Assembly: GCF_009674725.1 (NCBI RefSeq)
Contig: NZ_WKKH01000018.1
Coordinates: 1 to 64,000 of the forward strand
Reading direction: 5' to 3'
DNA length: 64,000 nucleotides
Origin: Pedobacter petrophilus
Lineage (GTDB): Bacteria; Bacteroidota; Bacteroidia; Sphingobacteriales; Sphingobacteriaceae
Position numbers and translations under genes: made by a program. Within the stretch, counting starts at the first letter, position 1. Each line of letters opens with the position of its first letter. The notes under the pieces are model-generated. The model made no database searches. It was not told where the DNA came from and saw only the letters and a program-made list of their open reading frames with translations. This document shows positions 40,294 to 63,524 of the stretch, one piece after another.

Positions 40294-42666
40294 TTATTTT
40301 CTTTTGATTATGTACTCACCCTGCCCTGCATTAAAATACAGCAAGCCATCTTTATTGTACAGGTCATTTATAGAATTTTTACTATTGCTTAGGCACTTGA
40401 TACTCCAATTGCCTTTTGCCAAATCGGCAATTAACACCTTGGTTGTTCCCTTAGCAGTTATTTTTAAATTGATGGCAGTTGCAGCCAGGTCTCCGTTTTT
40501 ATTGAACAGTACCATCCTATCACCGATTGTAGTGCCTACAAATCGATCTGTTTCTACCCTTTCGGCCAACAGTGGCTTGGCATTTCCATAATCCATCACC
40601 TGCATCACATTCAAAAAATTATCCACCTTGTTGCCATCCTTAGGCGAAATCTCTATTCGCCATGCGGCATTATCTCCAGAGTTATTTGCCGCAACAATTT
40701 GCTGAGGGAAATTTTTTCCGTTCACGTTGTATTCATTTCCCTTGCCACCAACTTTCTGTATACTAAGGTTTTGAATCAATGGCAATAAAGTAGTGTTGAT
40801 CATTTGACCATTGTACCCTTTGTCGCTCCGTTTTACCATGGTAATATTCCCTTGGATTACAGGCTCTTCCACGCAGTGCAATAAGCAAGATTTTTTATAG
40901 CTTTTATCGGAAGCATCTACGCGATCAAAAACAATCAAAGCTGCAGGTACACCTATATTTTTAAGGTTCAAAAACACAAAAGAGCGCTTAAAGCTTTTTA
41001 CTTTATTACTATAAGCTTCTGCAAGTTCTCCTTTTAGGTAAGTATATTCGGGGGCTATGGTATCAGGGCCAAAAGCATGTGCCAGTACTTCACCTGTTTT
41101 ATAATCTTTTGCAAGAAAATCTGAGAGGTTTTTGGGTTCTGCCGCACCATTGGGAAACTGCTGCCCACCATCGTTCACTACCTCATTATCATGCCAGGTG
41201 AACTTTTCATCAGACTTGTAGATAAGCATTGAATTATGAGCAATTGTACGTTGATAATAGTTTTTAAAATGCGCTGAGCCATAGGCTCCTGTGGTGCCTT
41301 GGTAAATGCCCGAGTTAACCGCAAGAGGCCCTTTATAATAAAGTTGAAAACTGCCCGCATCCAAATGTTGATGGTTGGTAAAATTATAGGCACCTATCTT
41401 CATCTCAGCCACTACTGCATTTGAGTTTATGCCAGCTTCCCAACCTGTTCTTGCCACCATGGTGCCCAAGGGCTCTTTAAAGTATTTTGTTAGGGGCGTA
41501 GAACGCATGTCTTCTTTTGGCAATACATTGGGGTCTATGAGTAAGAGATCGTATAGGGGGTCTTTGCCAATCAGTTTTCCTTTAATAGCCGCACTCATAA
41601 GAACGGGGTCTTTGAAATAACTTGCCGTAAGCGCATCGGATGCCATGCTCCAATAGTCGCCGAATTTGATGAACAACTCGTTAAAATCGTCGCCATCTCT
41701 AAATACCTGTCCATCGGGTCTGCGGGTATAAAACCATTTATACGGCACGTTAGCTTGAGACTTGCTTACCACGTTTGGATACCCCATCCTATCAAAAAGG
41801 AGGGTAAAAAGCAAATCGTACTTAAACCGGTAAGGTCCATAAGCACTTCCCTGGTGGTGGTAAGAAGCTGGGTAAAACAAATTTCTAATCGGGATAAATT
41901 CAGCAAATATCCTACCCGCTACCAAGTTGTATATCTCGGGTTTTTCATCATAAGTAGCAATGCCGCAAGAAAGCATATCTCTTGATAACTGTGCCTCTAC
42001 CCCATGTCCCACAATGGATCCTTGCACTAATTTTGGCCAAACTACTTCTAGTTTTGTTGCCAAAGATTCCATTTGTGTGATGAGGACTTTTTTTTCTTTA
42101 TCGCCTATTAAATCATAGCACCAATCATATACTACAGCCATGGTATGTATGGCATTACCGATGTCTCTGCAAACGTCGGCTTTATTATAATCAATGATGA
42201 TGGTCTTATTCAGGTTTTGTATGGCAACCACGGCTGCTTCTCCCGATGGAACATGATGGTCAAACGCATACAAAAAAGCTTTTGATTCAATTGCACTTAA
42301 CACTTTAAAATCTATGTTGTGCCTTACACCTTGTTTTAGCTCACCATCGGTAGGCCTAAGAGCCTGTTTCCTGATGCTATCTAAACAACCCGACAACAAA
42401 GGGTTTGCCGCATTTTCTTTTAGCTTCGCAATGTCTGATTTTCTAAAATACAAACGAGGGTGTTCGTGGGGTGGCTTGGGGATATCCAAGCCCAAGCCAT
42501 CCCTTTTGGTTAAGGGTGGATATTTAACTTGAACAATTTTATTTGTATCAATAGCATGAATATAGGGATCCACATATCCTGGATGTGCGTCTAATACTTT
42601 CTGTGCATGCGCAGCTAATCCGATGGCAAAAGCAACTGCAGTTAGTAGTATTTTAATATTATGCAT
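40294..42666 (-). CDS. Heparinase II/III-family polysaccharide lyase 2
   Basis: A 790-residue exported protein with a signal peptide ending near residue 21 (GLAAHAQ). The helical toroid half includes PHEHPRLYFRKSDIAKLKEN, MAVVYDWCYDLIGDKE and QGSIVGHGVEAQLSRDML. The beta-sandwich half carries the family motif FTNHQHLDAGSFQLYYKGPL and YYQRTIAHNSMLIY. This is the usual Tyr/His setup of heparinase II/III-type lyases that act on uronate-containing glycans. It is only distantly related to lyase 1 at 28085. It is flanked by an AKR gene downstream (86 bp) and the GlcG/HbpS-like gene upstream (80 bp). The specific PL family and substrate are not resolved. Confidence 0.82.
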   Translation of the reverse strand: MHNIKILLTAVAFAIGLAAHAQKVLDAHPGYVDPYIHAIDTNKIVQVKYPPLTKRDGLGLDIPKPPHEHPRLYFRKSDIAKLKENAANPLLSGCLDSIRKQALRPTDGELKQGVRHNIDFKVLSAIESKAFLYAFDHHVPSGEAAVVAIQNLNKTIIIDYNKADVCRDIGNAIHTMAVVYDWCYDLIGDKEKKVLITQMESLATKLEVVWPKLVQGSIVGHGVEAQLSRDMLSCGIATYDEKPEIYNLVAGRIFAEFIPIRNLFYPASYHHQGSAYGPYRFKYDLLFTLLFDRMGYPNVVSKSQANVPYKWFYTRRPDGQVFRDGDDFNELFIKFGDYWSMASDALTASYFKDPVLMSAAIKGKLIGKDPLYDLLLIDPNVLPKEDMRSTPLTKYFKEPLGTMVARTGWEAGINSNAVVAEMKIGAYNFTNHQHLDAGSFQLYYKGPLAVNSGIYQGTTGAYGSAHFKNYYQRTIAHNSMLIYKSDEKFTWHDNEVVNDGGQQFPNGAAEPKNLSDFLAKDYKTGEVLAHAFGPDTIAPEYTYLKGELAEAYSNKVKSFKRSFVFLNLKNIGVPAALIVFDRVDASDKSYKKSCLLHCVEEPVIQGNITMVKRSDKGYNGQMINTTLLPLIQNLSIQKVGGKGNEYNVNGKNFPQQIVAANNSGDNAAWRIEISPKDGNKVDNFLNVMQVMDYGNAKPLLAERVETDRFVGTTIGDRMVLFNKNGDLAATAINLKITAKGTTKVLIADLAKGNWSIKCLSNSKNSINDLYNKDGLLYFNAGQGEYIIKRK

Positions 42667-46263: not shown

Positions 46264-46989
46264 TTAAATTAAACCTTGCAAAATATATTTCTCGGTATTT
46301 GCATATAATGAAGTATAAATGCTAAAATCGGTTCTATTGGTATCAATTCTTCTTTCCAGGCGTAATACAGGGCTACCGGCATCAATTTCTAGGTAATGGC
46401 TCACCAAATCATCTGCTAAAATTGCCCAAATTTTTTGCTCTCCACCTTTTATCTCAATTTTATAATGCGTTCGTAATAGCTCGTATAAAGATTTGTTTGC
46501 TAAGGATCTGGAAGCAAAGCGTGGCAAATTATGATTTGGGATATGGAGAAACTCATAAAAGACAACGGTATCCGCTACACTTCTCTGCCTTTCAATGTAG
46601 AAACAAGAGTCTTCCAATTCTTGCTGAGTTGGAGTAAAAGGCATAACATCTGGCCATGATGTAATTCTAGGGCCGTCGATAATTTTTGTCAATAAGTTTT
46701 CTACATTACTGTTTGAATTAGCTAAGCGGCCTTCTATGGATAGAATACCCAGCCCGGTTGGCAATTCTTGTACAATGCTTCCCTTGCCATGATGTTTTTT
46801 TATATAGCCATCATTAACCAATAAGGCCAAAGCCTGTCTAATAGTTGGTTGTGTTACCGAGTGAGCGATATTGAGTTCACTTTCTGACGGAAGCAAGTCG
46901 CCAGCTTTATAAACCCCATTACTGATTTGTTTACGCAGGGTTTCATAAAGCTGGCGATATTGTGGAATCCTAATATTTTTATCAGCCAT
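46264..46989 (-). CDS. GntR-family regulator, HutC subfamily (UTRA domain)
   Basis: A 241-residue repressor-type regulator. The winged HTH is at about residues 8-75 (YRQLYETLRKQISNGVYKAG, LPSESELNIAHSVTQPTIRQ), and the UTRA sugar/amine sensor domain at about 90-240. It starts 26 bp after the stop of the SUMF1-fused hydrolase gene and is the last gene of the operon running down from 53374. Two identical 14-bp palindromes in that operon's promoter (53383-53396 and 53431-53444) are good candidates for its binding site, which would make it autoregulatory. The ligand is probably a phosphorylated sugar or uronate product of the operon (inference). Confidence 0.88.
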   Translation of the reverse strand: MADKNIRIPQYRQLYETLRKQISNGVYKAGDLLPSESELNIAHSVTQPTIRQALALLVNDGYIKKHHGKGSIVQELPTGLGILSIEGRLANSNSNVENLLTKIIDGPRITSWPDVMPFTPTQQELEDSCFYIERQRSVADTVVFYEFLHIPNHNLPRFASRSLANKSLYELLRTHYKIEIKGGEQKIWAILADDLVSHYLEIDAGSPVLRLERRIDTNRTDFSIYTSLYANTEKYILQGLI

Positions 46990-47015: not shown

Positions 47016-49622
47016 CTATTGGTTAGCGTTCATCATACATCTAAAACCAAGTGTACCAGCTCGATCTAAACCTGGGTACATCAAAAAATATTTGCAATGA
47101 AAATCAATGGGCTGTTTACCCCCTGGAGCAGCTTTAAAATAACTTGTTCCACCGCCAAAGTACCACCTAGATGTGCTCAACTGCCAAGTTTCACAGCCGC
47201 CGCGGAGGGTTACAAAGCGATTATTACCGTCAAACCTTTCGCTCTCATTCCATTCCCATACTTTATTAAATACAAAGCTTGTCCCGTGGGTTTCAGCTGC
47301 AGCTTGCCATTCCCATTCTGTGGGTAAGCGCATACCAGCCCATGCGGCGTATGCCCTTGCATCTTCCAAAGAAACATACACAACGGGTTCGTTTTTAATG
47401 GCATCTGGGCATTTAGTGCCTTTCCAATGTTTCAAATAGTTATCAGTATTTGTTGGCGTATAGCCTGATTTGTTTATGAAATTTTCAAACTCTCCATTAG
47501 TAACCACCTTAGGCATGATTTGGTAATTGGGCAATACCTGATTTTGGTGATGAATAATAAAGCTGAAACCATTCTCTTTCACAAATTTATATTCGGTTTC
47601 ATTCACTGCGTCCTCATCTGGGTAACAATCACCTTCACGCTGTGCATGTTTAACGGTAAAGTGGTAATTAGCACCCTTAACCTTCAATAAATTGGCGATA
47701 TAATTTTTATTTGCAACTACAGCACTAGGCGTTTTTGCTTTCTTTAAGAACAAGACTTTAGCATAATTATCATTTACAGGAAGCGGTTTTGCATCTTCCG
47801 CCTTTTGCTTAGCTAGCAAAGCAAAAATTTCTTTAGAAGGCATTTTACCTTTAAGACCTAACACGCAACCTAATCGATTTATACTTACACTGATTTTACC
47901 ATTAACCAAGGCTAATTTTTTTCCTGTCCATAAATCATAATACTGCATGTGATGCTCATCTGCATCAAATTCTACCTTAACACCTTTTAATGGAGCATCG
48001 GCAACGACATTCCAAATTCGAGTTTCGCTGTTTTCCCAGGATGATATATTTACCGATTTATTGTTTGTAGGCAAATATGGTTTCCATGAATCAGAGGTGT
48101 ATAAAGGATAGTATTGTTGCCAAATGGCGTTCATTTTACGGATGGTCTGACGATCTGTGGCGTTCCATTTATTCATTATTCCAAATAGGTTTTCCCAAAC
48201 TATCGCCCCTTGGCCGTTTAACCATGTAAAAGCAAGGTCGTTCTGGCGGTCGGTTTTACCACGATTGATCCTTAACTGCAAATGATCTGGAATGATCCAT
48301 TTCAAGGCAAGCACCCCTTGATTATTGATTGGCTTTACGGTTTGTGCCCATGAAGAGGTAACGGCGTTAGGCCCTTGTGCGCATTGCAACAGCGGACTCA
48401 ATTCAGGGCCAACCGTAACACCTCTTTTATACTTATCCAGCTCTTGCTGAAACTCCATCCCATAGGTGCCAACATCCATAAACAACCCATCGGCATCGGT
48501 TTTACCAATTATTTCCGGAAAAATTTTGAAATCAGTTTTGTCAGCTTGCCTGGTATCTACGTCCCAAGGATTATAGATAAGAATTGCTTTTACTCCGTTA
48601 TCATGAAATTCCTTTACAATATTGGCTAAAGCAGGTATACCGCCGGGCATATTGTAAAAATAATCAAACTGGTTTTTTTCGTCGATACCGATATTAGGAT
48701 AGCTATGCCATATCATTACCGATTGGAAACCTCCAAATTCCTTTTTCATCTTATCGCAGTACTCTTTTACCTTATACTTGCCGGTTTCGTTATCATAAAA
48801 ATCCTTGTCCCACATAAATGCAAACCCCATAATAAAATTCTTTTTGAGCCATTGCATTTCAGGCCGGTCATACAATTGCCTGTCTAATGCAATTGATTTA
48901 GGATTAAACATTATAGCCAGTTCATTATATCTTTTTACACGGTCTGGATTAGATGGCAGCGACAAATTCAATGAACGTATATTTACCTTTGCAATCATAT
49001 CATCAAGCGCTTCTACACGTACAAAGGGCACTATAGAAAAACTATCAGTGTTAAATTTGGGCACTGAAAGTGTTTGGCTAAACCTTGCCATTTTCTTATC
49101 CGCCATAAAATATTCGGTCCCATGGAATACCCGCCTAACTGGATTTGAAATTTCTTCCCCTTTGTTCTTTAATGCGAAATCGATAAATATCTTGGCCTTA
49201 CCTGCCTTAGCATCTATCATTCCATCTATCACTATTTTTTCTGAAGGCACTAGCTTCATATCGAAAGCTACCTTATTAAAGTTTATGGTGGTCTGTCTGG
49301 TTTTATCAAGAATCAACTCGATAAAATAAGCCGTTGTATCATTGGTATGTGCCCTTACAAATGATTGATAATCTTTCATTTTTTTGTACCAATCGTTCCA
49401 ATTTTCGCCTGGTTTAGGAGGTAAGATAACAGATTCGCTATGTTCTAAGGTTTCTGAGTACTTCCAGTTAGCTGTACCATCCCACATATCGGCATTTATT
49501 ACATATTGAGAGAAAGGGAAACGGAGGTAATCTGATTGCTTATTTTGTGCATGGAGTTCAGTGGCTGCAATAAGCAAAATAAAGCATATAAGCAGTTTAA
49601 ATGTTAGATTTTTATGTTCCAT
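47016..49622 (-). CDS. Secreted TIM-barrel hydrolase-like protein fused to a SUMF1-like domain
   Basis: An 868-residue exported protein. The signal peptide ends near residue 25 (ATELHAQ). An N-terminal beta domain reaches about 250. A TIM-barrel region spans about 255-560: WLKKNFIMGFAFMWDKDFYD, FGGFQSVMIWHSYPNIG, DADGLFMDVGTYGMEF, GVTVGPELSPLLQCAQGP and IVWENLFGIMNKW. These look like a glycosidase barrel, with Asp and Glu candidates, but I cannot place the family. From about residue 700 to the end the chain has a formylglycine-generating-enzyme-like (SUMF1) fold (MRLPTEWEWQAAAETHG, VWEWNESERF, VTLRGGCETWQ, TLGFRCM). The cysteine pair of true FGEs is not at its expected place, so that half is probably a binding domain. 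It sits in an operon with a sugar transporter, kinase and GntR regulator. Confidence 0.75.
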   Translation of the reverse strand: MEHKNLTFKLLICFILLIAATELHAQNKQSDYLRFPFSQYVINADMWDGTANWKYSETLEHSESVILPPKPGENWNDWYKKMKDYQSFVRAHTNDTTAYFIELILDKTRQTTINFNKVAFDMKLVPSEKIVIDGMIDAKAGKAKIFIDFALKNKGEEISNPVRRVFHGTEYFMADKKMARFSQTLSVPKFNTDSFSIVPFVRVEALDDMIAKVNIRSLNLSLPSNPDRVKRYNELAIMFNPKSIALDRQLYDRPEMQWLKKNFIMGFAFMWDKDFYDNETGKYKVKEYCDKMKKEFGGFQSVMIWHSYPNIGIDEKNQFDYFYNMPGGIPALANIVKEFHDNGVKAILIYNPWDVDTRQADKTDFKIFPEIIGKTDADGLFMDVGTYGMEFQQELDKYKRGVTVGPELSPLLQCAQGPNAVTSSWAQTVKPINNQGVLALKWIIPDHLQLRINRGKTDRQNDLAFTWLNGQGAIVWENLFGIMNKWNATDRQTIRKMNAIWQQYYPLYTSDSWKPYLPTNNKSVNISSWENSETRIWNVVADAPLKGVKVEFDADEHHMQYYDLWTGKKLALVNGKISVSINRLGCVLGLKGKMPSKEIFALLAKQKAEDAKPLPVNDNYAKVLFLKKAKTPSAVVANKNYIANLLKVKGANYHFTVKHAQREGDCYPDEDAVNETEYKFVKENGFSFIIHHQNQVLPNYQIMPKVVTNGEFENFINKSGYTPTNTDNYLKHWKGTKCPDAIKNEPVVYVSLEDARAYAAWAGMRLPTEWEWQAAAETHGTSFVFNKVWEWNESERFDGNNRFVTLRGGCETWQLSTSRWYFGGGTSYFKAAPGGKQPIDFHCKYFLMYPGLDRAGTLGFRCMMNANQ

Positions 49623-49660: not shown

Positions 49661-50662
49661 TTAGACTATTTTAGAAACGATTATAGCGATAAGTCCAAAC
49701 ACATAAAAAGCAATGGTAAGGCTTAATAAGGTTAAAGTTCCTTTCGGAGGATTTTTAAATTCTTTCCATACAAAAATACCCCATAAAATGGCGACCACTG
49801 TTGCACCCTGTCCCAAACCGTAAGAGATAGCGAAACCTGCCTTTCCTGCTGCTAAAATACTAGCAGACATGCCTATACACCATATCGAACCTCCAAGCAC
49901 ACCTATTAAATGAGTTTTTAAAGTGCCTTCAAAATATTGGCTATAACTTACAGGTTGGCCCACAAAGGGCTTTTTCATAATCACTGTGTTTAAAATAAAA
50001 TTACTGACGAAGATTCCTAGTGAAAAAAAGAATATAGCAGTATAAGGGCTAAGAAGTCCCGCTTCTGGAGTAATTAGATTTACTGCCATTGATTTGGCTA
50101 CAAACCGATAAAAAAAACTCATTAAAACACCACTAATTACCGCTAATACAATGCCTTTGGCAGAAGTTTGATGCGAGCCATTATTCATTTTACGGTAAGC
50201 GAAAGCGCTGGTTATAATAGCCAGTGCAACTAAAAATACGCCAACTGCGAGATAAACCGGATCGCCGACCGGGGATGCCATGTAATTGATAAACACACCT
50301 AATACTAAAGCGATACCCACGCAAATAGTTATAGCAATGGACATGCCTGCAATAGCAATAGCGGCCACTAATAAAATATTTGCAATATTAAAAATCAGTC
50401 CTCCCAACATGGCAGACCCAATACTGCCTGAGCCTGCCTGAGCGAAATCATCGGCGAAAGACCGCCCATGGCTGCCTGAACTACCCAGCGTTAGGGCCAA
50501 GACCAAGGAAAACAATAAAATACCGATGGTGTAATCCCAATAGAAAAGCTCAAAACGCCAAGTTTTTGAAGCGAGTTTTTGAGTGTTTGCCCAGGATCCC
50601 CAGGCAAACATGGCAACAAAACATAAAATAACAGAGATGGTATAACTTTCTGGAGTATACAT
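49661..50662 (-). CDS. DMT-superfamily sugar transporter (RhaT/GRP-like)
   Basis: A 333-residue inner-membrane permease with about 10 helices. The N-terminus (AMFAWGSWANTQKLA), the LGGLIFNIANILLVAAIAIA segment, and the internal duplicated helix-pair pattern match the RhaT/GRP type (drug/metabolite transporter superfamily) found in Bacteroidota sugar loci. Members import L-rhamnose or glucose with a proton or sodium. It lies 38 bp before the SUMF1-fused gene and after a PhyH gene, so the operon probably imports its own monosaccharide. The sugar is unknown. Its leader contains ACCAAA repeats like those before SusC. Confidence 0.78.
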   Translation of the reverse strand: MYTPESYTISVILCFVAMFAWGSWANTQKLASKTWRFELFYWDYTIGILLFSLVLALTLGSSGSHGRSFADDFAQAGSGSIGSAMLGGLIFNIANILLVAAIAIAGMSIAITICVGIALVLGVFINYMASPVGDPVYLAVGVFLVALAIITSAFAYRKMNNGSHQTSAKGIVLAVISGVLMSFFYRFVAKSMAVNLITPEAGLLSPYTAIFFFSLGIFVSNFILNTVIMKKPFVGQPVSYSQYFEGTLKTHLIGVLGGSIWCIGMSASILAAGKAGFAISYGLGQGATVVAILWGIFVWKEFKNPPKGTLTLLSLTIAFYVFGLIAIIVSKIV

Positions 50663-50774: not shown

Positions 50775-51560
50775 TTAAAATTCCATAATCGCTTTGCGGG
50801 ATACCTTTAGCAAAGGTTCAAAATTCCCATAATCCCTCACTTTTTTATAGGGTTTGTTTGCAACTGTGTTGTATGAGGCGATAAGGCTCCATCGGTCATG
50901 ATCAGAATTATTACTATCGGAGCGATGAAGAATATTTCCGTCAAAAAACAAGGCATCGCCAGGTTCCATCTCCATATATTCCAATTCATATTTACTAATT
51001 GCTTCTTGTAATCTTTCTTCGTCTACCACAGTTTGTTCGTTGATGCGATCGTGATTTATACGGCCAATTTTTTGCGAACCTCTTAACACCTGAAGGCATC
51101 CATTCTCCCTAGTTGCTTTATCTACTGCAATGGTACAGCTTAACATATCTGGCAATAAGCAACCGTAGTTGTACCAATATCCATAATCCTGATGCCACTC
51201 CCAAGCCCCACCTTCTTTGGCATTTTTGAGTATCATTTTCGCACTATACACGTAAATTGATTCGCCAAGCAAAATTTCTGCGTTTTCAACAACCCTTTCG
51301 TTTCTTGAAAACATGCCGTAAATATCTTCTCCAGGCTTATCCCACATTTTAAGTTTGGTAAGGTTTCCGGTTTGGTCACCTTTAACCAGTACTTCTTCTG
51401 GATTAATATCTGCTTGCGCAATGGTTTTTAATTTAGCCACTTCTACTGCACTAAACAAAGATTTAACCAGTATAAATCCACTTTCTTTAAATATCTTTTT
51501 ATCGGCTGGACTGAATAATTTAAAATTAGGATCTGCGATTACTTCTGGTGATTGTAACAT
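50775..51560 (-). CDS. Phytanoyl-CoA dioxygenase (PhyH) family protein 2
   Basis: A 261-residue Fe(II)/2-oxoglutarate-type dioxygenase, cytoplasmic. The HxD pair is in GAWEWHQDYGYWYNYG and the distal His in DGNILHRSDSNN. The 2-oxoglutarate Arg is probably in DHDRWSLIASYN. It resembles PhyH protein 1 only in the core motifs, so the two are likely separate subfamilies. It starts 11 bp after the PfkB kinase stop codon, so they are co-transcribed. The substrate is unknown. Association with the sugar kinase and TIM isomerase suggests modification of the same small-molecule sugar. Confidence 0.82.
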   Translation of the reverse strand: MLQSPEVIADPNFKLFSPADKKIFKESGFILVKSLFSAVEVAKLKTIAQADINPEEVLVKGDQTGNLTKLKMWDKPGEDIYGMFSRNERVVENAEILLGESIYVYSAKMILKNAKEGGAWEWHQDYGYWYNYGCLLPDMLSCTIAVDKATRENGCLQVLRGSQKIGRINHDRINEQTVVDEERLQEAISKYELEYMEMEPGDALFFDGNILHRSDSNNSDHDRWSLIASYNTVANKPYKKVRDYGNFEPLLKVSRKAIMEF

Positions 51561-51571
51561 GATGATAAATT

Positions 51572-52483
51572 TTAGCTATTGAAATTGTTTACTTCGGTTA
51601 AAGTAGGTAGACCAGCTACCGTGCCTATTTTTGTTACAGCTAGCGCAGCCACTTTTGAAGCGAAATCAATCGCATCTTCAATAGGCTGATTAGTTGACAA
51701 TGCATAAACTAGTCCACCGTTAAAGGCATCGCCAGCACCCGTAGAATCGATTGATTTTACTTTTTTAGCTGGGAAATGTTGCTTTTTATCTTGCGAAAGC
51801 AGAATACTGCCACATTCCGCCAGTGTAATAATTACATTTTTAGACCCTTTACTGATTAGCGCATCTGCTGCGGCATAGGCCGATTCTAGATCGGTAACTG
51901 CTATTCCAGAAATGATACTAGCTTCGGTTTCGTTGGGCGTAATATAATCCACTAAAGCGAGTATTTCAGGCTTAATGGCCTGAGCTGGAGCTGGGTTAAA
52001 CACTACAGTTGTATTTGTTGAATGGCCAATCCTGATCGCTTCTTCCACAACGTCTAAATTGTTTTCCAACTGGATCAGTAAAAAATCAGCTTCTTCAAAC
52101 AGTTGTTTATTGGCGTGCAAATCTGCAATGGTTAAATGAGAATTTGCACCCGCAACCACACCTATGGCATTATGGCCTTTATTATCAATGAGTATAAGTC
52201 CTACACCAGTATGGCAATCGTCAATCACTTTTACAGCATCTGTCGCTAAGTTTTCTTTTTTAAACAGCGCTAAGGCGTCCTTGCCAAATGTATCGTCGCC
52301 AATACAACACATAAATTTTAAGTCGGCTCCAAGTCTGGCCAGCGCTAAAGCCTGGTTAGATCCCTTTCCACCTGGTCCCATATCAAACCTACTGCCCATA
52401 ATTGTTTCTCCAAGCGATGGAATTTTATCTCCGATTACGCTTAAACCCACGTTGTAACTACCTATCACTAATATTTTCTTCAT
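51572..52483 (-). CDS. PfkB-family sugar kinase (ribokinase-like)
   Basis: A 303-residue cytoplasmic kinase. The two PfkB signatures are visible: GPGGKGSNQALALARLGADL (about 36-55) and DSTGAGDAFNGGLVYAL near residue 250, the latter containing the catalytic Asp and anion hole. The phosphate donor region NVIITLAECGSILLS also fits. It looks most like ribokinases, but in a glycan locus it may phosphorylate another sugar, such as a released pentose or a ketose made by the neighbouring isomerase. It lies between the TIM isomerase (69 bp upstream) and PhyH 2 (11 bp downstream). Confidence 0.88.
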   Translation of the reverse strand: MKKILVIGSYNVGLSVIGDKIPSLGETIMGSRFDMGPGGKGSNQALALARLGADLKFMCCIGDDTFGKDALALFKKENLATDAVKVIDDCHTGVGLILIDNKGHNAIGVVAGANSHLTIADLHANKQLFEEADFLLIQLENNLDVVEEAIRIGHSTNTTVVFNPAPAQAIKPEILALVDYITPNETEASIISGIAVTDLESAYAAADALISKGSKNVIITLAECGSILLSQDKKQHFPAKKVKSIDSTGAGDAFNGGLVYALSTNQPIEDAIDFASKVAALAVTKIGTVAGLPTLTEVNNFNS

Positions 52484-52552: not shown

Positions 52553-53374
52553 TTAAAATATATTTGTTACTTTTTTAAATCGTTCTTTTTGCCTTTCGTT
52601 CATCCATTCGCAAATTTCCCATAAATTAGATACTGGAGTATTAGAAAAGGGCAATGTATGATGATAACCTGGAGGGCCGAATTCGGGAGCAATGGTACTT
52701 TGCCTCATCCCTTTAGCTAATTGTTTTTGCCAGATCATATCCCACCATTTTTCATGCGCTTCAACATGCTGCTGGTATTCTGGTGCTCGTGGATCGGGTA
52801 CTTGTGGCCCTTGTTCATATCCTACACGTGCATGGATGTGTATGCATCGCTCTGCACAAAGCTGTATAATTTCTATTTCTGATTCAATTAAACGCTCACA
52901 AACACAAACCCAATGACTAAAATCGCAGCAAATGTTTAGCTCAGCAAATGACAGCAATAGCTCTCTGGTATCCCATGGATTATAAGTTATCCTGCCCCTA
53001 TGCGTTTCATGTGCAACAGGTATTCCTATTTCTTTTTCGTATGCTAAAGCTTGTGCTAAAAACTCGTGTTTTTGGCTCATTGTCCAACTGTCTTTTCCAC
53101 TTTGGCTATTGATAAGAACAGGGTTTAAAGGTAATGACTGTTGTATCAATTCTTTAAAAGAGGCTACGTGCTCTGTTACGGTTTCGCCATACGTGTGAAT
53201 CTGGGCAATAAATTCAAAGTCATACTTGGAAAGTAGTTTTTTAAAGCCTACATGCTCCAATGCTCGAACGCTTTTAAACTCTACCCCGTTGTAGCCATTT
53301 TCTTTGATTTTCGAAAATGCCGATTCAAATGGTTCTGTAACTCCCCATAAATGGCGAAAGGTCTTTAACTGCAT
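52553..53374 (-). CDS. TIM-barrel sugar phosphate isomerase/epimerase family protein 3
   Basis: A 273-residue cytoplasmic TIM-barrel protein, paralogous to that at 22629-23447. Shared metal-site blocks are HETHRGR, CCDFSHWVCV, IHIHARVGYEQGPQVPDPRAP and APEFGPPGYHHTLPF. It is the first gene of an operon that ends with the HutC-type regulator. Its promoter region holds two identical palindromes (53383-53396, 53431-53444). The ATG at 53374 follows an AACCAA leader. It probably converts the sugar that the downstream kinase phosphorylates. The reaction is not identified. Confidence 0.8.
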   Translation of the reverse strand: MQLKTFRHLWGVTEPFESAFSKIKENGYNGVEFKSVRALEHVGFKKLLSKYDFEFIAQIHTYGETVTEHVASFKELIQQSLPLNPVLINSQSGKDSWTMSQKHEFLAQALAYEKEIGIPVAHETHRGRITYNPWDTRELLLSFAELNICCDFSHWVCVCERLIESEIEIIQLCAERCIHIHARVGYEQGPQVPDPRAPEYQQHVEAHEKWWDMIWQKQLAKGMRQSTIAPEFGPPGYHHTLPFSNTPVSNLWEICEWMNERQKERFKKVTNIF

Positions 53375-53485: not shown

Positions 53486-56400
53486 TTAACCTTTTCCTTT
53501 CTTAATGCTATGGTCTATATCAAGCAAAAATTGACTAGGACTAACCCCATATTCCTTTTTAAAAACAGTAGAAAAATATGATTTCGATAAAATACCCACC
53601 CGATACATTACTTCTCCTACCGAAACTGCTTCACAGGTCATAATCTCAACTGCTTTTTTTAGGCGTACATTTTTTACAAACTCAATAATGGCAAGTCCTG
53701 TTATTTCTTTAATTTTTGTACCAAGTTTAGTTTTGCTCATTCCTATCTCCTTGCAAATCATATCCACACTCAAATCTGGGTTTTCCATGTGTAGTTCTAT
53801 AATAGCCAAAAGTTTGTCCATCAATTCCTTATCTTTAGCAGAGTGTACAAGTTCCCTTACCTCCACCTTATAGTCTTTCAAGTAACGCTGCTTTATTTTT
53901 TGTCGCTGATCAAAAAGATTTTTAATAGTGAGCGATAAAAGATCTATATCAATCGGCTTACTAAAATAATGGTCGGCGCCAAACCCTACACCGCTAATCT
54001 TTGTATCGGGAGTATCGTTGGCTGTTAATAAAATAATAGGGATATGACTCGTTTCCAAATCTTCTTTTAGCAAACGGCAAAGTTCAATCCCATCCATTTT
54101 GGGCATCATCACATCGCTAAGAATAAGATCCGGACTTTGCTCTTTTGCTTTAATAAGTCCTTCCAGACCATCAACAGCTTCATAAATATGATAATGCAAT
54201 GCTAAGCACTCCCTTAAAAAAGCCCTTATTTCATCATTATCTTCTACAATAAGTAAGGTTTTTGCTTCCCTTGGCAGCGCTAAATCTAGGTTTCCTTTTA
54301 TTAGGATATCTTTTTTAAAATACAATTCGTTTTTATACTCCAGGCTTTCTAGTTTAACGGTACTTTCTTCATTATTTTCGTCCCACAGTTCTGATAATTT
54401 ATACTCTTTTTTACCAATTGGGATTGCTATGCTAATTTCCGTACCCTTAAGCTTTTCACTGTATACATAAATTTCCCCTTTGTGCAAAAACGTAAGGGTT
54501 TTAACAAAAGCTAGGCCAAGGCCAGAGCCTAAGTGCGATTGAGTAATCCGGAAATATCGCTCAAACAAATGGTTCATAGATTGTTTGGAAATGCCTATCC
54601 CGTTATCGGCCACACGGATGTAAACATATTCGGCTGCTTTATAATTGCTTTTTAAAATCAGTTCATTTTCAAACGATGGCTTTAAGTCTGCAATAGCAAA
54701 AAAGATTTCAATTGTTACTGTTTCTCCAGCCGGAGTGTATTTAAAAGAATTATGCAACAGGTTGATGATGATTTTTTCTATGATCTGTTTATCAAACCAT
54801 AAATCTTCGTTTATTACAGGAATATTTACTTTAAAATTGATCCCTAACTCAATTGCTTTTTCAGAAAAGTCTGCAGCTAAATCATTAATCAATTGAGCTA
54901 AATTTCCCTTTGTAACCTTTAGGTTTAAAACACCTGTTTCTGCTTTACGGAAATCGATAATTTCGTTGATCAAACCCATCAGGCGCATGCCGTTTCTGTA
55001 CATAATTTGAGTTGAGTTCTTCAACGTTTCAGAACCTCCCTCTTTCATTATTCGTTGAAGTGGCCCTAGTATTAAGGTAAGCGGGGTGCGTAATTCGTGA
55101 GATATATTGGTAAAAAATTGAAGCTGAGATTGATGAATCTCTTCCTTTTTTACTTCATCTATTTTTTTAAGCTCTACTTTCCTTCTTTGTTGAAGCAAGA
55201 AAATCAGTGTTGCCATCAAAACCAATACTCCCGACAACTTAAACCACCAGGTCATCCAGAATGGTGGAACAATAATAACATTTATAGATGCCTCGTTTGT
55301 ACCCCAAACACCATCGGCATTTCTTGCTTTTACCTTGAAAACATATTTTCCTGGATCTAAATTCGTATACGTTGCTTTTCGCTGATTTCCCACAAAGTTC
55401 CATGCCCTGTCAAAGCCTTCAAGATAATAAGCATATTGCGTTTTTTCTGGGTCGATATAATTGAGAGATGCATAGTCGAAAGAAAATAATGATTGATCGT
55501 AGGCTAGTTTGACTTCCTTCGCTTCACTAATTGGACTTTTTAAAACCGAATTATCGCCAAATGCTATTACACTTTTGTTAAATATTTGGAAATCGGTAAA
55601 ATATACAGGTGCTACATTACTGCTGTTAGAAATACTATCGGGATGGAAAATATTAAAGCCCTGAGTTCCTCCGAAAAGCATTTTGCCATCTCGGGTTTTT
55701 AAGCTAGAATTTCTAGAAAACTCAAGACCTTGCAATCCATCTGCTTCAGAATATCGTTTAAAGAAAAGCTGATCAGGGTTGTATTTGATAAGGCCGTTAT
55801 TTGTACTGATCCAAAAATTTCCCTTCAAATCTTCCATAATTTCTAAAATTATGATTTTACCGAATTTAGCGCTTAATGCAGGTTGCTTAAATGTTCTGGT
55901 TTTAAAATCAAACAGCATTAAACTGTTTTGCCCTATCCATAATCGTCCTTTAGAATCGTTAAAAACCACATCAACAGGTTCATAGAACGAAATTTTGGTA
56001 TTAGAGTTCGGATTAAAATAACTAGTTAACGATTTATTTTTTTCAGAATAGCAATATAAACCTGCATCGTCTGTTCCTATCCATAAATCCCCATTTTTAT
56101 CTTCCTGTATCCGGCTGATACTTTTGCCTTCAAATTTTGTTTTTTGATTAATTGGCCCCTTAAAAAGCCTAAATATGCCTTTTTTTCTATCTAAAACCGA
56201 TAAGCCGCCGTACGCAGTACCCACCCATAATTGCCCCCTGCTATCTTCAAATAGCTGGCATACGTCATCAGAACCGATGGAGTTTGTATCTGCGGGCTGG
56301 TGAACAAAACGAGAAAAGTTGTTTGTTTTAGGGTTAAACCGATTAAGCCCCCCTCCCCATGTTGCAACCCAAATAGTTCCTTGTTTATCCTTATAGACAT

Positions 56401-57682
56401 GAAGTACCGCATCGGACCCTAGAGTACTTGAATTACCCAATTTATTACGATATACCCTATACGTGTTATCCTTTCGATTCCAAATGTTGATGCCTCCACC
56501 GTCTGTCCCTATCCAAATTAAACCGTCTTTATCTTCATAAAAAGTTTTTACGTTTTTATGAGATAAACTGTTCGATTGCGGAAGGGCCGTAACCAGATTG
56601 AATTTATACCGTTCGGGACTGTAAACGCATAGCCCCCCACCTGTAGCCACCCAAAAATTATGCTGCTTGTCTTCCAATACAGCGGATACACTTTTTTGAG
56701 GAAGACTTGTTTTAGAAAACGGATCACTTTTGTAATGGGTAAAGCTATTGGTCGTAAAACTATATACACTGAGCCCACCATTTACTGTTCCAACCCAAAA
56801 ATCACCTTTACTATCTTTAAATAGACATAGAACTTCATTTTCTGGCAAACCGATTAGCTTGTTTTCATTTTTTTTAAACTGCCTGACAGATCCTTTTGTA
56901 CTATTAATAACTGATATTCCTTCCTCTTTTGTCCCTACCCATAGATCGCGGTTTTTATCTTCACAAATTGCAGTAATGAAATTACTGGAAATGCCATTAC
57001 TTCTATTAAACAACTTCCAAGTACGGCCAAATAATTGATACAGCCCATTTCCATCCGTGCCTACCCAAAGCGTTTTATTGCTAGCTTGATAAATACAATT
57101 TATGCCATTAAGGTTCTTTGCCTCTTTAGTGTAAGCGCTATAATTGTCTATTCGCTTTTTTCCAAATTGTATAAGGTTCAAACCACCCGCAGTACCTATC
57201 CATAAATTTCCTTTATCATCTACAAAGACAGTTCGGATGTTATTATTGCTTAATCGGCCTGCATTCTTGGTATTGTACAAAAAACGAGTAAATGTATTTG
57301 AGTTTCTGTTAAACCTATTTAGTCCAAAACCTGTTGCAACCCAAATATTATGGTCTTTATCTTCGCAAATGCCATTAATAAAGCTATTGCTTATGGAGCC
57401 TTTATTGTTTACATCCGGTAGGTAATTTATAACCTGATAGCCATCATATCGGCTCAAGCCATAACTCGTTCCTATCCATATATAACCTTTACTGTCTTGA
57501 AAAACACATCTTATTTTACTATTTGACAGCCCTTTTTCAATCACTCTAAATTTAAGTTCAGGATAGGAAGCTGAAGCAATACCTGCATTGGCAAAAAAGA
57601 ACAGTATAATATATATATGGAAAACGAGCCTACTATATACCAGTGAAATTGTTTTGCAAAGGACCTTTTTGCTCATTAACAT
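53486..57682 (-). CDS. Hybrid two-component system sensor/regulator (HTCS 2)
   Basis: A 1398-residue HTCS with the same domain order as HTCS 1: signal peptide, about 14 propeller repeats (e.g. DSKGYIWIGTSYGLSRYDGY), Y_Y_Y domain, membrane helix (about 820-840), HisKA with acceptor His862 in NISHELRTP, HATPase (NNSFKY-like LLHNSFKYTP, GIGISKQ, GSGLGLAF), receiver with VEDNDE and Asp1190 in LSDVMMPKMDG, and an AraC-type HTH at the C-terminus. The periplasmic parts differ enough from HTCS 1 to allow a different ligand. It is divergent from the jelly-roll/GH31 genes, and the 187-bp shared region holds an inverted repeat at 57788-57833. Confidence 0.95.
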   Translation of the reverse strand: MLMSKKVLCKTISLVYSRLVFHIYIILFFFANAGIASASYPELKFRVIEKGLSNSKIRCVFQDSKGYIWIGTSYGLSRYDGYQVINYLPDVNNKGSISNSFINGICEDKDHNIWVATGFGLNRFNRNSNTFTRFLYNTKNAGRLSNNNIRTVFVDDKGNLWIGTAGGLNLIQFGKKRIDNYSAYTKEAKNLNGINCIYQASNKTLWVGTDGNGLYQLFGRTWKLFNRSNGISSNFITAICEDKNRDLWVGTKEEGISVINSTKGSVRQFKKNENKLIGLPENEVLCLFKDSKGDFWVGTVNGGLSVYSFTTNSFTHYKSDPFSKTSLPQKSVSAVLEDKQHNFWVATGGGLCVYSPERYKFNLVTALPQSNSLSHKNVKTFYEDKDGLIWIGTDGGGINIWNRKDNTYRVYRNKLGNSSTLGSDAVLHVYKDKQGTIWVATWGGGLNRFNPKTNNFSRFVHQPADTNSIGSDDVCQLFEDSRGQLWVGTAYGGLSVLDRKKGIFRLFKGPINQKTKFEGKSISRIQEDKNGDLWIGTDDAGLYCYSEKNKSLTSYFNPNSNTKISFYEPVDVVFNDSKGRLWIGQNSLMLFDFKTRTFKQPALSAKFGKIIILEIMEDLKGNFWISTNNGLIKYNPDQLFFKRYSEADGLQGLEFSRNSSLKTRDGKMLFGGTQGFNIFHPDSISNSSNVAPVYFTDFQIFNKSVIAFGDNSVLKSPISEAKEVKLAYDQSLFSFDYASLNYIDPEKTQYAYYLEGFDRAWNFVGNQRKATYTNLDPGKYVFKVKARNADGVWGTNEASINVIIVPPFWMTWWFKLSGVLVLMATLIFLLQQRRKVELKKIDEVKKEEIHQSQLQFFTNISHELRTPLTLILGPLQRIMKEGGSETLKNSTQIMYRNGMRLMGLINEIIDFRKAETGVLNLKVTKGNLAQLINDLAADFSEKAIELGINFKVNIPVINEDLWFDKQIIEKIIINLLHNSFKYTPAGETVTIEIFFAIADLKPSFENELILKSNYKAAEYVYIRVADNGIGISKQSMNHLFERYFRITQSHLGSGLGLAFVKTLTFLHKGEIYVYSEKLKGTEISIAIPIGKKEYKLSELWDENNEESTVKLESLEYKNELYFKKDILIKGNLDLALPREAKTLLIVEDNDEIRAFLRECLALHYHIYEAVDGLEGLIKAKEQSPDLILSDVMMPKMDGIELCRLLKEDLETSHIPIILLTANDTPDTKISGVGFGADHYFSKPIDIDLLSLTIKNLFDQRQKIKQRYLKDYKVEVRELVHSAKDKELMDKLLAIIELHMENPDLSVDMICKEIGMSKTKLGTKIKEITGLAIIEFVKNVRLKKAVEIMTCEAVSVGEVMYRVGILSKSYFSTVFKKEYGVSPSQFLLDIDHSIKKGKG

Positions 57683-57869: not shown

Positions 57870-58976
57870 ATGATACAAAAACCGGAGGCATTAACCTCAG
57901 CTCAATCGAGTGCTGGGACAACTAACCTCAAGTATTTAGATTGCTGTCTTTCAGGGCTTTTTGCCAAAAGCAGCGAACATACATCCCAGAAAAAAACCCT
58001 TTTCTTAACGAGTTGCAGCTTAACTATTGGTATGATGATCTCAATCACATCATGGGCGCAGGAGGTAAAAAATAAACAGCTGAAACCCCAGTTAATCATT
58101 CAATCAAATTTTGAAGGGACAACCCGAGTTGTGCCAATACCTGGTACTAAAGATTATGGCGCTTCAATAGAACGGTTAGCTGGCAAGGGAGCAAAACTAA
58201 GGAATAGCGACTGGGATAAAGATCTTATACCAGTAATTAAAAGTGGCATACTGGAGGTTCAATACACTGGTGGCGATTCTTCTAAACGCTACGCTAAAGT
58301 TGTACCAGAGCCAGGCAACCCTAACAACCATGTACTTAAGTTTTGGCTGGATGGTTCATGGACAGCAGATTTGGGACTTCAAAAAGCAAGGGTACAAACA
58401 AATCTATATGGCATCAAGGGAGGTTTCAAAGAATTTTATCAGTCGGTAAGAGTATTTCTTTCTAACGATTTTGCAGTGCTTCGAGATTACCCTAAAAGAA
58501 TAACATGGCTTACACTTTCAGAATTTTGGAATAACGAATGGTGGGTAAAAGAAGAGAAATATGGTTTCAGGAATGGCTTGTGTATTGGCAAACTAGATCC
58601 TAATGAAACAGATTTAAACTTTTTATTAAATGCCGAAGACCCAGGCCAAAAAGAAGTTTGGCGGTATAACAATACAAACGTAAAAGTACCCATAGGAAAA
58701 TGGTTTACCATGGAATACTACTTTAAAGAAGGCAATAAAGAAACCGGCCGTTTTTATCTAGCCATAACCCCAGATGGTGAGCCGAAAAAAGTGGTTTATG
58801 ATGTGCATAATTTTACGCACATGACCACTGATCCAGCTCCAAACGGATTAACAGGATATAACCCGATGAAATTATATACTTCACCAGAAATTGTTGCCTA
58901 TGTGAAATCTAAGGGGAAAACACTCCAGATTTATTGGGACGATTTTAAACTCTGGAAGAATAAACGCCCACAATAA
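57870..58976 (+). CDS. Jelly-roll (ConA-like) polysaccharide lyase/binding protein, paralogue 1
   Basis: A 368-residue protein, first of four paralogues at 57870-64000. Conserved core motifs are FKEFYQSVRVFL, WLTLSEFWNNEWW, GKWFTMEYYFKEG, GRFYLAITPDG, NPMKLYTS and IYWDDFKLWKNKRP. The predicted fold is a beta-jelly roll like that of alginate lyase/LamG families. I cannot say whether it is a lyase or a non-catalytic glycan-binding protein. The start is odd: about 45 residues precede a signal-like stretch (LFLTSCSLTIGMMISITSWAQ), so the real start may be internal, but no Met lies between residue 1 and that stretch. It is divergent from HTCS 2 and followed 29 bp later by GH31. Confidence 0.65.
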   Translation: MIQKPEALTSAQSSAGTTNLKYLDCCLSGLFAKSSEHTSQKKTLFLTSCSLTIGMMISITSWAQEVKNKQLKPQLIIQSNFEGTTRVVPIPGTKDYGASIERLAGKGAKLRNSDWDKDLIPVIKSGILEVQYTGGDSSKRYAKVVPEPGNPNNHVLKFWLDGSWTADLGLQKARVQTNLYGIKGGFKEFYQSVRVFLSNDFAVLRDYPKRITWLTLSEFWNNEWWVKEEKYGFRNGLCIGKLDPNETDLNFLLNAEDPGQKEVWRYNNTNVKVPIGKWFTMEYYFKEGNKETGRFYLAITPDGEPKKVVYDVHNFTHMTTDPAPNGLTGYNPMKLYTSPEIVAYVKSKGKTLQIYWDDFKLWKNKRPQ

Positions 58977-61344: not shown

Positions 61345-62406
61345 ATGAAAAATTCTTTTTTAATAGTGCTAACTATTCCTGCATTAATATTATGTATGGG
61401 CAGTTGCAAGAAAAACCAAGAGGTAGCAAATACCACTGCCTCTTCATCCAGCACTTCAGAAAACCAGCTTCAGTTGCTAAGCACCACAGGCACACTGGTT
61501 GCGTCATCAGATTTTAACAATTCAGCTATTTCTTATGTAGATCCACAACGTGATGACCTTACCGGCATTAATGTTAGTCCCTACGACTGGACAACTTCAA
61601 ATTTTGGAAAAAGCTTTCGCTTTTATTACGAAGGGGGAACATCTACAGACCGCAAAGCTGTAATAACAACAGATGATAACAGTACCAATAACATTCTAAA
61701 ATACATTATTACTAACGGCACCATTGCGGCAAACCCGCCAAAAGCCAGAGTACAGGTAGAAATTGATGGCTTTAAGGACCCAGTTACTGGCGGATATTTC
61801 AAAGAGTTTTACCAAAGCGTAAGAATGAAACTTCATTACAGCTCATTCAAGAAAATTTTAGATGACCCAAACCGACTAGTCCCACCTACCCCAACATACG
61901 ATCCACATGATTGGCTTACCTTATTTGAACTTTGGAACAATAATACCTGGGGAGATGATTTTCCTTTTAGAATAGGGATAACTTTAAAGAAATCTGCAAA
62001 CTTGCAAAATTTTAACTTTGAAGCAGGTGCTCAAAAAGATGTTAGCGGTTCGTTTCAAGACGTTTGGAAAAATTCTTCCTCTACATTTGTTGTACCACTA
62101 GGCACCTGGATGACTGTTGACATCTATTTTAAAGAAGGTACAGCAGGCAGTAATAATGGTAAGTTTTATATGGCTGTTACGCCAGATGGCGGTACTAAAA
62201 CAGTAATATTTGATTATGCAACCGGCACTAATCACAATTGGACACAGCACCCAGGTGATCCTAATCCAGACGGTGTGCAAAGTTGGAACGCCATGAAACT
62301 ATATACTTCTAAAACTATTATAGACGCTGTAAAAGCAGGTACTAATCCTCAATCGTTACAAGTATCTTGGGATAATTTTAGAATTTGGAGAGATAAGCAA
62401 CCTTAA
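61345..62406 (+). CDS. Jelly-roll surface lipoprotein, paralogue 2
   Basis: A 353-residue lipoprotein. The signal peptide ends in MGSCKKNQE, a lipobox followed by lysines as in exported Bacteroidota surface proteins. A Ser/Thr-rich linker (about 30-55) leads into the jelly-roll core with FKEFYQSVRMKLHYS, WLTLFELWNNNTW, GTWMTVDIYFKEG, GKFYMAVTPDGGTKTVIFDY, NAMKLYTS and VSWDNFRIWRDKQP. It probably binds or cuts glycan at the cell surface. The gene lies 105 bp after the GH31 stop codon and 80 bp before paralogue 3. Confidence 0.68.
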   Translation: MKNSFLIVLTIPALILCMGSCKKNQEVANTTASSSSTSENQLQLLSTTGTLVASSDFNNSAISYVDPQRDDLTGINVSPYDWTTSNFGKSFRFYYEGGTSTDRKAVITTDDNSTNNILKYIITNGTIAANPPKARVQVEIDGFKDPVTGGYFKEFYQSVRMKLHYSSFKKILDDPNRLVPPTPTYDPHDWLTLFELWNNNTWGDDFPFRIGITLKKSANLQNFNFEAGAQKDVSGSFQDVWKNSSSTFVVPLGTWMTVDIYFKEGTAGSNNGKFYMAVTPDGGTKTVIFDYATGTNHNWTQHPGDPNPDGVQSWNAMKLYTSKTIIDAVKAGTNPQSLQVSWDNFRIWRDKQP

Positions 62407-62486: not shown

Positions 62487-63524
62487 ATGAAAAAATATTC
62501 TTTTTTGTTAGTATCCATGTGCTTCTTCTTTGCATGCAGCAAAAAAAACAGTCCACTAGTGTCCTCACCACCTATTAATCCAATTGACATCAGTCCTGTA
62601 CCAACTTCAGAGTTGATATTTAACTCTGGTTTTGAAAACACTACCATCATACAAACTAATGCGCAGATGGATGAATTTAGAGGTAAAGATCTTACGTTCT
62701 CTACAAAGAATGATTGGGTAACTGATTTCGCAAACCATCCGAACGTTGGTTATGTAAGAAATTACTATGAAGAAGGTGATAGTACCCAGCGTAGGGCCAG
62801 AATTGTAGCAGAACCATTAAACCCGAGCAACAAAGTGCTTAATTATAAATTACTTACACCTCATATTGCCATTCCGGCAAGCTCTCAGTATACGGTAAAT
62901 GGAATTGTTTTCGATAAAAAAGCCAGAATACAAATGGATATTTACGGCAATACCGATTTGAAGGAAGTATACCAATCTGTACGCCTATTTATACCTACAG
63001 ACTTTAACAAGCTTGTTAATTCTGCATACCCAGCAAGTGGAGATTGGATTACCCTATTTGAGTTTTGGAATAATGCGCAATGGAATCCTGGGGCTACCTA
63101 TCCTTTCCGTTTTGGTGTTACGCTTAGCAAAATTGCTCCTGGCACCGTTGGCTCTCCATTCTTTTTCAAAGTTGAAGCCCAGAAATTAGTAAGCGGATTT
63201 GTAACCGTATGGGAAAAATCTAACACCGGTTTTCAAGCTCCTATTGGTAAATGGATGACCATAGAGTATTATATCAAAGATGGTAACAAAGGAAACGGAC
63301 GCTTTTATTTTGCAGTTACACCAGATGGTGGCACTAAAACGGTAGTTTATGACCTTAAAGAAGATACCTGCCATCCAGATGACCCCAATCCGGACGGGCT
63401 TGGAGACATCAATCCAATTAAACTTTATACCTCTAATAACATGGTAAATCAGATGAACGCTAGAAATGGCATCTTCCAAGTGTATTGGGATGATTTTAAG
63501 TTTTGGAAAAATAAAAGGCCATAA
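62487..63524 (+). CDS. Jelly-roll surface lipoprotein, paralogue 3
   Basis: A 345-residue lipoprotein with a lipobox in FFFACSKKNSP and a Pro/Ser-rich linker. The core repeats the set seen in paralogues 1 and 2: LKEVYQSVRLFIP, WITLFEFWNNAQW, GKWMTIEYYIKDG, GRFYFAVTPDGGTKTVVYDL, NPIKLYTS and VYWDDFKFWKNKRP. The plus-strand unit ends here in a hairpin terminator (63576-63607) shared with the convergent paralogue 4. Confidence 0.68.
   Translation: MKKYSFLLVSMCFFFACSKKNSPLVSSPPINPIDISPVPTSELIFNSGFENTTIIQTNAQMDEFRGKDLTFSTKNDWVTDFANHPNVGYVRNYYEEGDSTQRRARIVAEPLNPSNKVLNYKLLTPHIAIPASSQYTVNGIVFDKKARIQMDIYGNTDLKEVYQSVRLFIPTDFNKLVNSAYPASGDWITLFEFWNNAQWNPGATYPFRFGVTLSKIAPGTVGSPFFFKVEAQKLVSGFVTVWEKSNTGFQAPIGKWMTIEYYIKDGNKGNGRFYFAVTPDGGTKTVVYDLKEDTCHPDDPNPDGLGDINPIKLYTSNNMVNQMNARNGIFQVYWDDFKFWKNKRP

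Follow-up and report, generated by a model that had tools for sequence, protein, structure and literature searches.

A barrel protein paired with a SUMF1-like domain

We analysed a 64,000-nucleotide stretch of Pedobacter petrophilus DNA (hereafter the window; contig NZ_WKKH01000018.1, positions 1 to 64,000), which encodes on its minus strand an 868-aa protein that combines a (beta/alpha) barrel with a SUMF1-like domain. With somewhat more confidence than doubt, we read this protein as a secreted exo-glycosidase from a family unnamed in the libraries searched, in which D383 and E407 would carry out catalysis, the SUMF1-fold module would have shed its FGE chemistry, and the product would pass to proteins encoded by neighbouring genes. 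The pairing of barrel and SUMF1 recurs, including in distant bacteria, and is not a one-off, which is a correction to the first-pass annotation of the window. Among 35 barrel proteins, the SUMF1 partner is fused in 30 and encoded by the next gene in three; the other two are cut by contig ends. In the three split cases, all from genomes of the f52 family, SUMF1 is the gene just before the barrel, with an 11-base overlap in two and a spacing of 54 bases in one. One of the 30 fused genes (L063 8166-10949, genome G269) is broken by a TAG stop, in frame, within the region that encodes SUMF1.

We take the 868-aa open reading frame (ORF) to be a real gene because a relative with 59% identity across residues 10-863 exists in a Salinivirgaceae metagenome-assembled genome (MAG). 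This is the only relative confirmed by a genome-contig scan, and two more family members lie beside it at the same MAG locus. The protein appears to be built from a carbohydrate-binding module (CBM)-like beta-sandwich, a barrel of the amylase-superfamily type with its C-terminal beta-domain, and a SUMF1-fold domain. In the full-length model, the N-terminal region resembles beta-sandwiches of the Protein Data Bank (PDB), namely MAM (meprin), GlfT2 and CBM16, CBM22, CBM29 and CBM4, with Z of approximately 10-12 over some 120-150 residues. The N-terminus looks like a signal peptide, and the protein is probably secreted.

The family is sparsely distributed in the genomes sampled, nearly all of which come from the phylum of the window; other lineages were reached through plasmid records and IMG/VR contigs. 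A protein search matched 222 of 395 genomes of the phylum at E 0.001, mostly in the SUMF1 part only; within the listed matches, 15 of the 395 genomes, the window's own included, had a match to the barrel part. A five-row profile identified at least 15 of these 395 genomes at E 1e-25, each with a barrel match that stands alone or runs into SUMF1, and the family was present in at least 13 of 400 genomes sampled from the order. Genome counts are lower bounds, with mostly two candidates scored per genome, and the overlapping order and phylum samples are not summed. Plasmid records of Sphingopyxis sp. FD7 and Spirosoma sp. KNUC1025 also carry family members, as do two IMG/VR contigs, one with a barrel gene cut by the contig end (L041) and one with a full-length gene (L081). 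Further scans of viral contigs gave repeats or nothing. Both contigs are classed as viral. The second is probably bacterial, with TypA- and GH2-like genes alongside (by eye). The first has phage-like genes at its opposite end, again by eye.

A tree of the barrels shows four types (930-aa, 700-aa, that of the window protein and split). It includes 33 of the 35 rows, each longer than 250 residues, and is midpoint-rooted with several open forks. The window's type mixes Pedobacter with the Salinivirgaceae MAG, which suggests transfer of that type. Judged by titles and the beginnings of abstracts, and with subscription journals poorly covered, none of the papers listed (in one case 10 of 787) seemed to give an account of a barrel-SUMF1 fusion.

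The SUMF1-like domain has lost the FGE cysteine pair

PF03781 is the only domain above its Pfam cut-off in the protein, matching residues 692-796 (E 5.1e-20, 72.7 bits against a cut-off of 23.3) and identifying the SUMF1 fold by sequence. The first-pass observation holds, and this match bears out the SUMF1-like part that it described. A profile derived from the family aligns to residues 634-866 as two segments that leave out profile positions 141-173, and the domains of the window protein and five relatives (6 of the 30 fused SUMF1 domains) are short of approximately 33-45 internal profile positions. The domain is strongly conserved, with many positions shared by 32-33 of 33 rows. In the YxPx(4)NxLxxW motif of the SUMF1 domains, Y721, P723, L730 and W733 are each present in 33 of 33.

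Across the stretch that holds the FGE cysteine pair, human FGE reads GGSYMCHRSYC and the window protein reads RGGCETWQLSTSRWYF. The pair is missing from its expected position, as had been noted at first pass, and the CxxxxC pattern occurs in none of the 32 SUMF1 domains of the family in which the stretch is present. A SUMF1 protein encoded elsewhere in the same genome (L003) keeps an FGE-like CxxxxC, in the form GGSFMCNASYC. The SUMF1 alignment has no His column conserved at 70% or more, and the sole Cys column at that level is the Cys of GFRC (32/32). The stretch that once formed the active site does retain an S-x-W-Y motif, with S in 31, W in 31 and Y in all of the 32 rows. The SUMF1 domain is most readily understood as a non-catalytic module: its rows have lost the common Cys pair, have no His in common and keep one motif where the active site used to be. 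Its earlier interpretation as a domain turned to binding or structural use is plausible on these grounds. The window holds no sulfatase, as was also stated at the outset; the three PF00884 matches of the genome are on contigs 36, 58 and 23, with none on contig 18.

The two plasmid-borne family members are annotated as "SUMF1/EgtB/PvdO family nonheme iron enzyme". Judged by the residues found in the SUMF1 domain, the nonheme iron label is unsupported, and the NCBIfam equivalogs score far below their cut-offs in the window protein (EgtB 48.3 bits against 360, SenA 55.4 against 420). Naming these proteins after their accessory domain hides what is likely to be a glycosidase.

Sequence relationships of the barrel

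Profiled against Pfam, the SUMF1 half gave its PF03781 match and the barrel half gave no glycoside hydrolase (GH) family over the cut-off. The one Pfam match to the barrel half was a sub-threshold Melibiase_C at residues 551-588 (E 0.095, 13.3 bits against a cut-off of 22.9), and no usable result came from scanning the barrel against Pfam, NCBIfam and PHROGs. A PDB search with a 15-relative profile found SUMF1-fold chains only, plus weak rows taken as chance. PF19773 (DUF6259) and PF14871 (GHL6) had no hmmscan match in the window protein or in 15 aligned members, and PF00128 (GH13) had none in the window protein at a maximum E of 10, with filters that drop most matches above 0.1. No GH family could be assigned from Pfam, NCBIfam or PDB sequences (CAZy itself lies outside the libraries searched), and by these scans the barrel belongs to no family named in Pfam or NCBIfam.

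Profile-profile comparison with HHalign, using the 35-row barrel alignment, gave a probability of 87.5% against GHL6 (a set of 30 proteins, of which 22 exceed the Pfam cut-off) and 86.1% against DUF6259 (8 proteins, all over the Pfam cut-off), with only about 80 columns aligned, from beta3 to beta5. The value was 28.1% for GH13 (30 proteins, beta2-beta3 only), 1.6% for GH36 (7 proteins) and 1.8% for small Melibiase-matched proteins (12 proteins). Sixteen control families, represented by smaller sets of 2-12 proteins each, all gave 1.0% or less. In the DUF6259 alignment, the beta4 Asp lies opposite an Asp and the beta5 Glu opposite the Glu of a GEG motif; this GEG rests on the HHalign consensus, and a D...GEG regular expression matched one of the eight DUF6259 proteins. 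The GHL6 alignment also matches the Asp at beta4. These profile-profile results make GHL6 and DUF6259, both hypothetical hydrolase families, remote kin of the barrel. The first-pass view that the barrel matches no nameable hydrolase family stands for Pfam and NCBIfam but must be qualified by this remote kinship and by the local amylase-type likeness described below.

Fold models and putative catalytic residues

The full-length model has a mean pLDDT (predicted local distance difference test) of 48.6, a low confidence that is too poor in the barrel region, and the barrel was therefore folded alone. The barrel-only model (6 rows, mean pLDDT 57.7, predicted template-modelling score 0.52) contains beta1 to beta5 and the C-terminal beta-domain, with D383 directly after beta4 and E407 directly after beta5. 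In Foldseek comparisons, the model's local matches are amylase-type by title in nearly all of the best 50 rows (best E 2.6e-9), which also contain a GH5 mannanase and an alpha-galactosidase. In VIA comparisons, where rows within 1 Z of each other are treated as tied, the best match is a neopullulanase (Z 10.2, root-mean-square deviation (rmsd) 11.1 Å, 253 residues), followed by 9izo (Z 9.5, rmsd 3.7 Å, 163 residues). The GH36 entry 9ayu has Z 9.3 and GH27 rows have Z 8.4-8.8, with large rmsd. A GH36/GH27 identity for the barrel was considered and set aside on its HHalign values, although the fold comparison does not speak against it. Comparison of the predicted structure with GH families, as envisaged in the first-pass annotation, thus brought out a local amylase-type likeness in a low-confidence model and left GH13 and GH36/GH27 unseparated.

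D383 and E407 are likely the catalytic pair. Residue counts for the barrel come from 35 rows, two of them fragments, with identity to the window protein down to about 21%, and the invariant or near-invariant positions include W305, P309, G312, D314, W353, D354, G379, D383, E407 and the NG-x-G motif at 469-472. D383 and E407 are 24 residues apart, equal to the spacing of the Asp/Glu pair of Taka-amylase. As in GH13-like enzymes, hydrolysis would be retaining; the nucleophile would be D383, where beta4 ends, and the acid/base would be E407, where beta5 ends.

Gene neighbourhood and the predicted product

The features of the gene and its neighbours are listed in Table 1. In order, the gene run of the window comprises the two-component regulator, the isomerase-like protein, ribokinase, PhyH, the permease, the barrel-SUMF1 gene and GntR.

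Table 1. Features of the barrel-SUMF1 gene and adjacent genes, with window coordinates.
Feature	Position	Strand	Basis or remarks
Whole gene, 868 aa	47016..49622	minus	ORF and translation, plus relatives
Signal-peptide-like N-terminus, residues 1-26	49545..49622	minus	By eye: hydrophobic run ending LHAQ
CBM-like beta-sandwich, residues 30-226	48945..49535	minus	Low-confidence full-length model
(beta/alpha) barrel, putative glycosidase, residues ~247-512	48087..48884	minus	Barrel-only model, amylase-type matches, HHalign to GHL6 and DUF6259
C-terminal beta-domain of barrel half, residues ~513-595	47838..48086	minus	Strands in barrel-only model; sub-threshold Melibiase_C 551-588
SUMF1-like domain without FGE Cys pair, residues 634-866	47025..47723	minus	PF03781, family SUMF1 profile, Cys count
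D314, after beta2	48681..48683	minus	35/35 rows
D354, after beta3	48561..48563	minus	32/34 rows; E in 2
D383, putative nucleophile, end of beta4	48474..48476	minus	34/35 rows
E407, putative acid/base, end of beta5	48402..48404	minus	35/35 rows
S-x-W-Y motif, residues 818-821	47160..47171	minus	Lies where the active-site Cys pair of FGE would be
GntR-UTRA regulator, 26 bp downstream	46264..46989	minus	PF00392, PF07702
Sugar permease, 38 bp upstream	49661..50662	minus	Pfam, NCBIfam: Ureide_permease; RhaT/GlcU-like below cut-off
PhyH-type dioxygenase	50775..51560	minus	PF05721
Ribokinase	51572..52483	minus	PfkB; TIGR02152 336.3 bits, cut-off 299.65
Isomerase-like TIM-barrel protein (AP_endonuc_2)	52553..53374	minus	PF01261 28.9 bits, below cut-off 31.1
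Hybrid two-component regulator	53486..57682	minus	Reg_prop, HisKA, HATPase_c, Response_reg, HTH_18

Parts of this run recur beside other family members. A genome of the same genus (G504) has GntR, isomerase-like, PhyH, RhaT-type permease, ribokinase-like and barrel-SUMF1 genes, and the three f52 genomes have ribokinase-like, RhaT-type permease, SUMF1 and barrel genes (one scanned, two assigned by cluster). The Sphingopyxis run consists of a TonB receptor, a ribokinase-like gene, barrel-SUMF1 and GH127. We clustered the proteins of 30 loci, some from the same genus, using ORFs of at least 140 aa in stretches of 10 to 26 kb (positions 37000-60000 for the window); cluster names come from one or two scanned members, with SusC and SDR names given partly by eye or from record annotation, and Pfam scans covered 31 window proteins. 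The PfkB cluster is present in 6 of the 30 loci, from three lineages. With 7 PfkB genes in this 5.47 Mb genome, approximately 0.03 would be expected per 20 kb. Each of the four kinases tested has ribokinase as its highest-scoring NCBIfam model.

Other clades have other neighbours. The GH127 cluster is found in 7 of 30 loci, six of the 930-aa type, an MGH1/GH63-like cluster in 8 and a DUF2961 cluster in 4. GalT is present in 3 loci, aldose epimerase in 2 and GalK in 1, and in L065 a GalT-GalK-GalM set immediately precedes the family member. Proteins resembling ADP-ribosylglycohydrolase adjoin the barrel in two loci (L036 7364-8923 and L079 6686-8260; one scanned, the other assigned by cluster), and one of these genes stands behind SusC/SusD-like genes. 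A nucleoside hydrolase gene is present in L004. Several 700-aa members have no informative neighbour.

These neighbours supply direct substrate guesses for the barrel. The released monosaccharide would be imported by the adjacent sugar permease and then phosphorylated by the adjacent ribokinase. These two genes would point to a ribose-type product, and ribose or a ribose-like pentose is the leading, if doubtful, candidate for the window's clade. For the 930-aa clade, the galactose (Leloir) genes would point to galactose. The SUMF1-fold domain would oxidise nothing, and its conserved S-x-W-Y region would bind glycan or hold the enzyme together. If it binds sugar, an enzyme fold would have become a carbohydrate-recognition module working with a catalytic barrel. 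A bolder version, which we offer tentatively and with the balance against it, is a new glycosidase family of the amylase-type superfamily whose barrel needs an FGE-fold partner, with the Cys-oxidation groove remade as an S-x-W-Y sugar site and a sugar that differs from clade to clade, of ribose type where ribokinase is present and galactose where Leloir genes are.

Weighing the glycosidase reading and its alternatives

Several observations weigh against the glycosidase reading. Both structural models are of low confidence, and in the barrel-only model residues 172-256, from E407 onwards, have pLDDT below 50; because of this poorly predicted stretch after beta5, the amylase matches are local only, with a Foldseek TM of about 0.3 and rmsd of 14-19 Å, and VIA rmsd mostly of 11-12 Å. 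GH13 and GH36/GH27 are inseparable by fold, because 9ayu ties with the best GH13 row. The Arg known as invariant in GH13, two positions ahead of the Asp on beta4, is never present in the family, where F, N, V, Y, I, M or T stands at residue 381 (35/35 rows). The GHL6 alignment has no Glu opposite E407, and one paralogue (L004:4615-6852) has N in place of D383. The SUMF1 stretch of the window protein holds two cysteines that are not those of FGE, C810 and C843, and that of its closest relative (L004:9974) does likewise. Most of the queries used on the genomes contained barrel and SUMF1 together; this may bias the collection towards proteins with the pair, and barrel-only proteins were perhaps under-found. 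Secretion is perhaps not family-wide, because the Sphingopyxis member has no signal-like start (by eye). The ribokinase cut-off is passed by the window's kinase only, with the kinases of three relatives scoring below it, and the PfkB cluster is absent from 8 of 9 loci of the 700-aa clade, some of them in short stretches.

The extra cysteines also bear on the possibility that the protein is bifunctional, with the barrel as glycosidase and the SUMF1 domain as an oxidase with a different metal site, comparable to EgtB or PvdO. The strong conservation of the domain, the PvdO, EgtB and OvsA chains that match the SUMF1 profile and the annotation of the plasmid relatives would fit such an enzyme. However, the alignment shows neither a common Cys pair nor a cluster of His that could bind Cu or Fe, the two cysteines occur together in only 2 of 32 rows (the next relatives retain only C810), and six fused domains, that of the window protein included, have the gap in profile positions. 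We regard a bifunctional enzyme as quite improbable. The protein could also be a glycan-binding surface protein with a catalytically dead barrel, as its CBM-like flanking domain, the loss of D383 in one paralogue and the presence of Mtd phage receptor-binding chains among the relatives of the SUMF1 fold (at weak E-values) might suggest. Against this, D383 is kept in 34 and E407 in all of 35 divergent rows, and the genes run together with kinases and permeases; we consider a dead barrel improbable.

The remaining alternative concerns the substrate. The barrel might attack a uronate/xylan-type polysaccharide of the wider locus, with the ribokinase as an incidental neighbour, and the same 64 kb does encode a heparin-lyase equivalog, two GH88, two GH10, a GH120-type protein and SusC/D. 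The uronate/xylan context proposed at first pass is therefore real for the wider locus (heparin lyase, GH88, GH10), but the gene's own run is of a different kind, with ribokinase, permease, isomerase-like and PhyH genes. G504 holds the GntR-isomerase-PhyH-permease-PfkB-barrel set together, and ribokinase-like genes adjoin the barrel or the SUMF1-permease run in the three f52 genomes and Sphingopyxis. No gene of the other 29 loci clusters with the heparinase, GH88 or DUF4861 genes of the window (GH10 lies outside the compared stretch). A uronate/xylan substrate thus appears unlikely. Because of the ribokinase/permease run and some relatives that lie beside ribokinase-like or Leloir genes, release of a neutral monosaccharide by the putative exo-glycosidase would be the better fit.

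Comparison with known systems

The closest parallels to the barrel are the uncharacterised families DUF6259 and GHL6, whose beta3-beta5 stretch aligns by profile, with an Asp at beta4 in both and a Glu at beta5 in DUF6259 only. In the low-confidence model, the barrel resembles GH13 in its C-terminal beta-domain, in its Asp on beta4 and Glu on beta5, and in its top Foldseek rows. It differs in the missing Arg before the nucleophile, in having no Asp conserved at 90% or more after E407, and in an HHalign probability of only 28%. The likeness to GH36/GH27 alpha-galactosidases lies in the VIA matches to 9ayu and 4nx0 (Z 8.8) and the sub-threshold Melibiase_C. The acid/base of GH36 is an Asp on beta6, whereas the likely acid/base of the barrel is a Glu on beta5.

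The SUMF1 domain shares its fold, as judged by sequence, and NVWEW-like and GFRC motifs with FGE (SUMF1) and pFGE (SUMF2). It differs from them in having no CxxxxC, in being fused to a barrel and in carrying the S-x-W-Y and YxPx(4)NxLxxW motifs. SUMF2 is likewise not known to have FGE chemistry. The family profile also matches the SUMF1-fold domains of PorK/GldK, CalU17, ToxD and PvdO, and we know of no barrel of this kind in those proteins. Bacteroides has ribose-scavenging (rus) loci, and ribokinase, permease, SusC/D, ADP-ribosylglycohydrolase and nucleoside hydrolase genes recall these loci near various family members, although not all in one locus.

Other features of the window

Positions 40294-42666 encode a HepB heparin/heparan-sulfate lyase equivalog (703 bits against a cut-off of 600), and with its GH10 and GH88 genes the locus is one for mixed polysaccharide. 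A protein family with no Pfam match lies near the barrel in three loci (window 57870-58973, L061 14007-14993 and L068 12044-13213). Two adjacent ORFs of approximately 350 aa each, at 61345-62403 and 62487-63521, likewise have no Pfam match at E 0.001.

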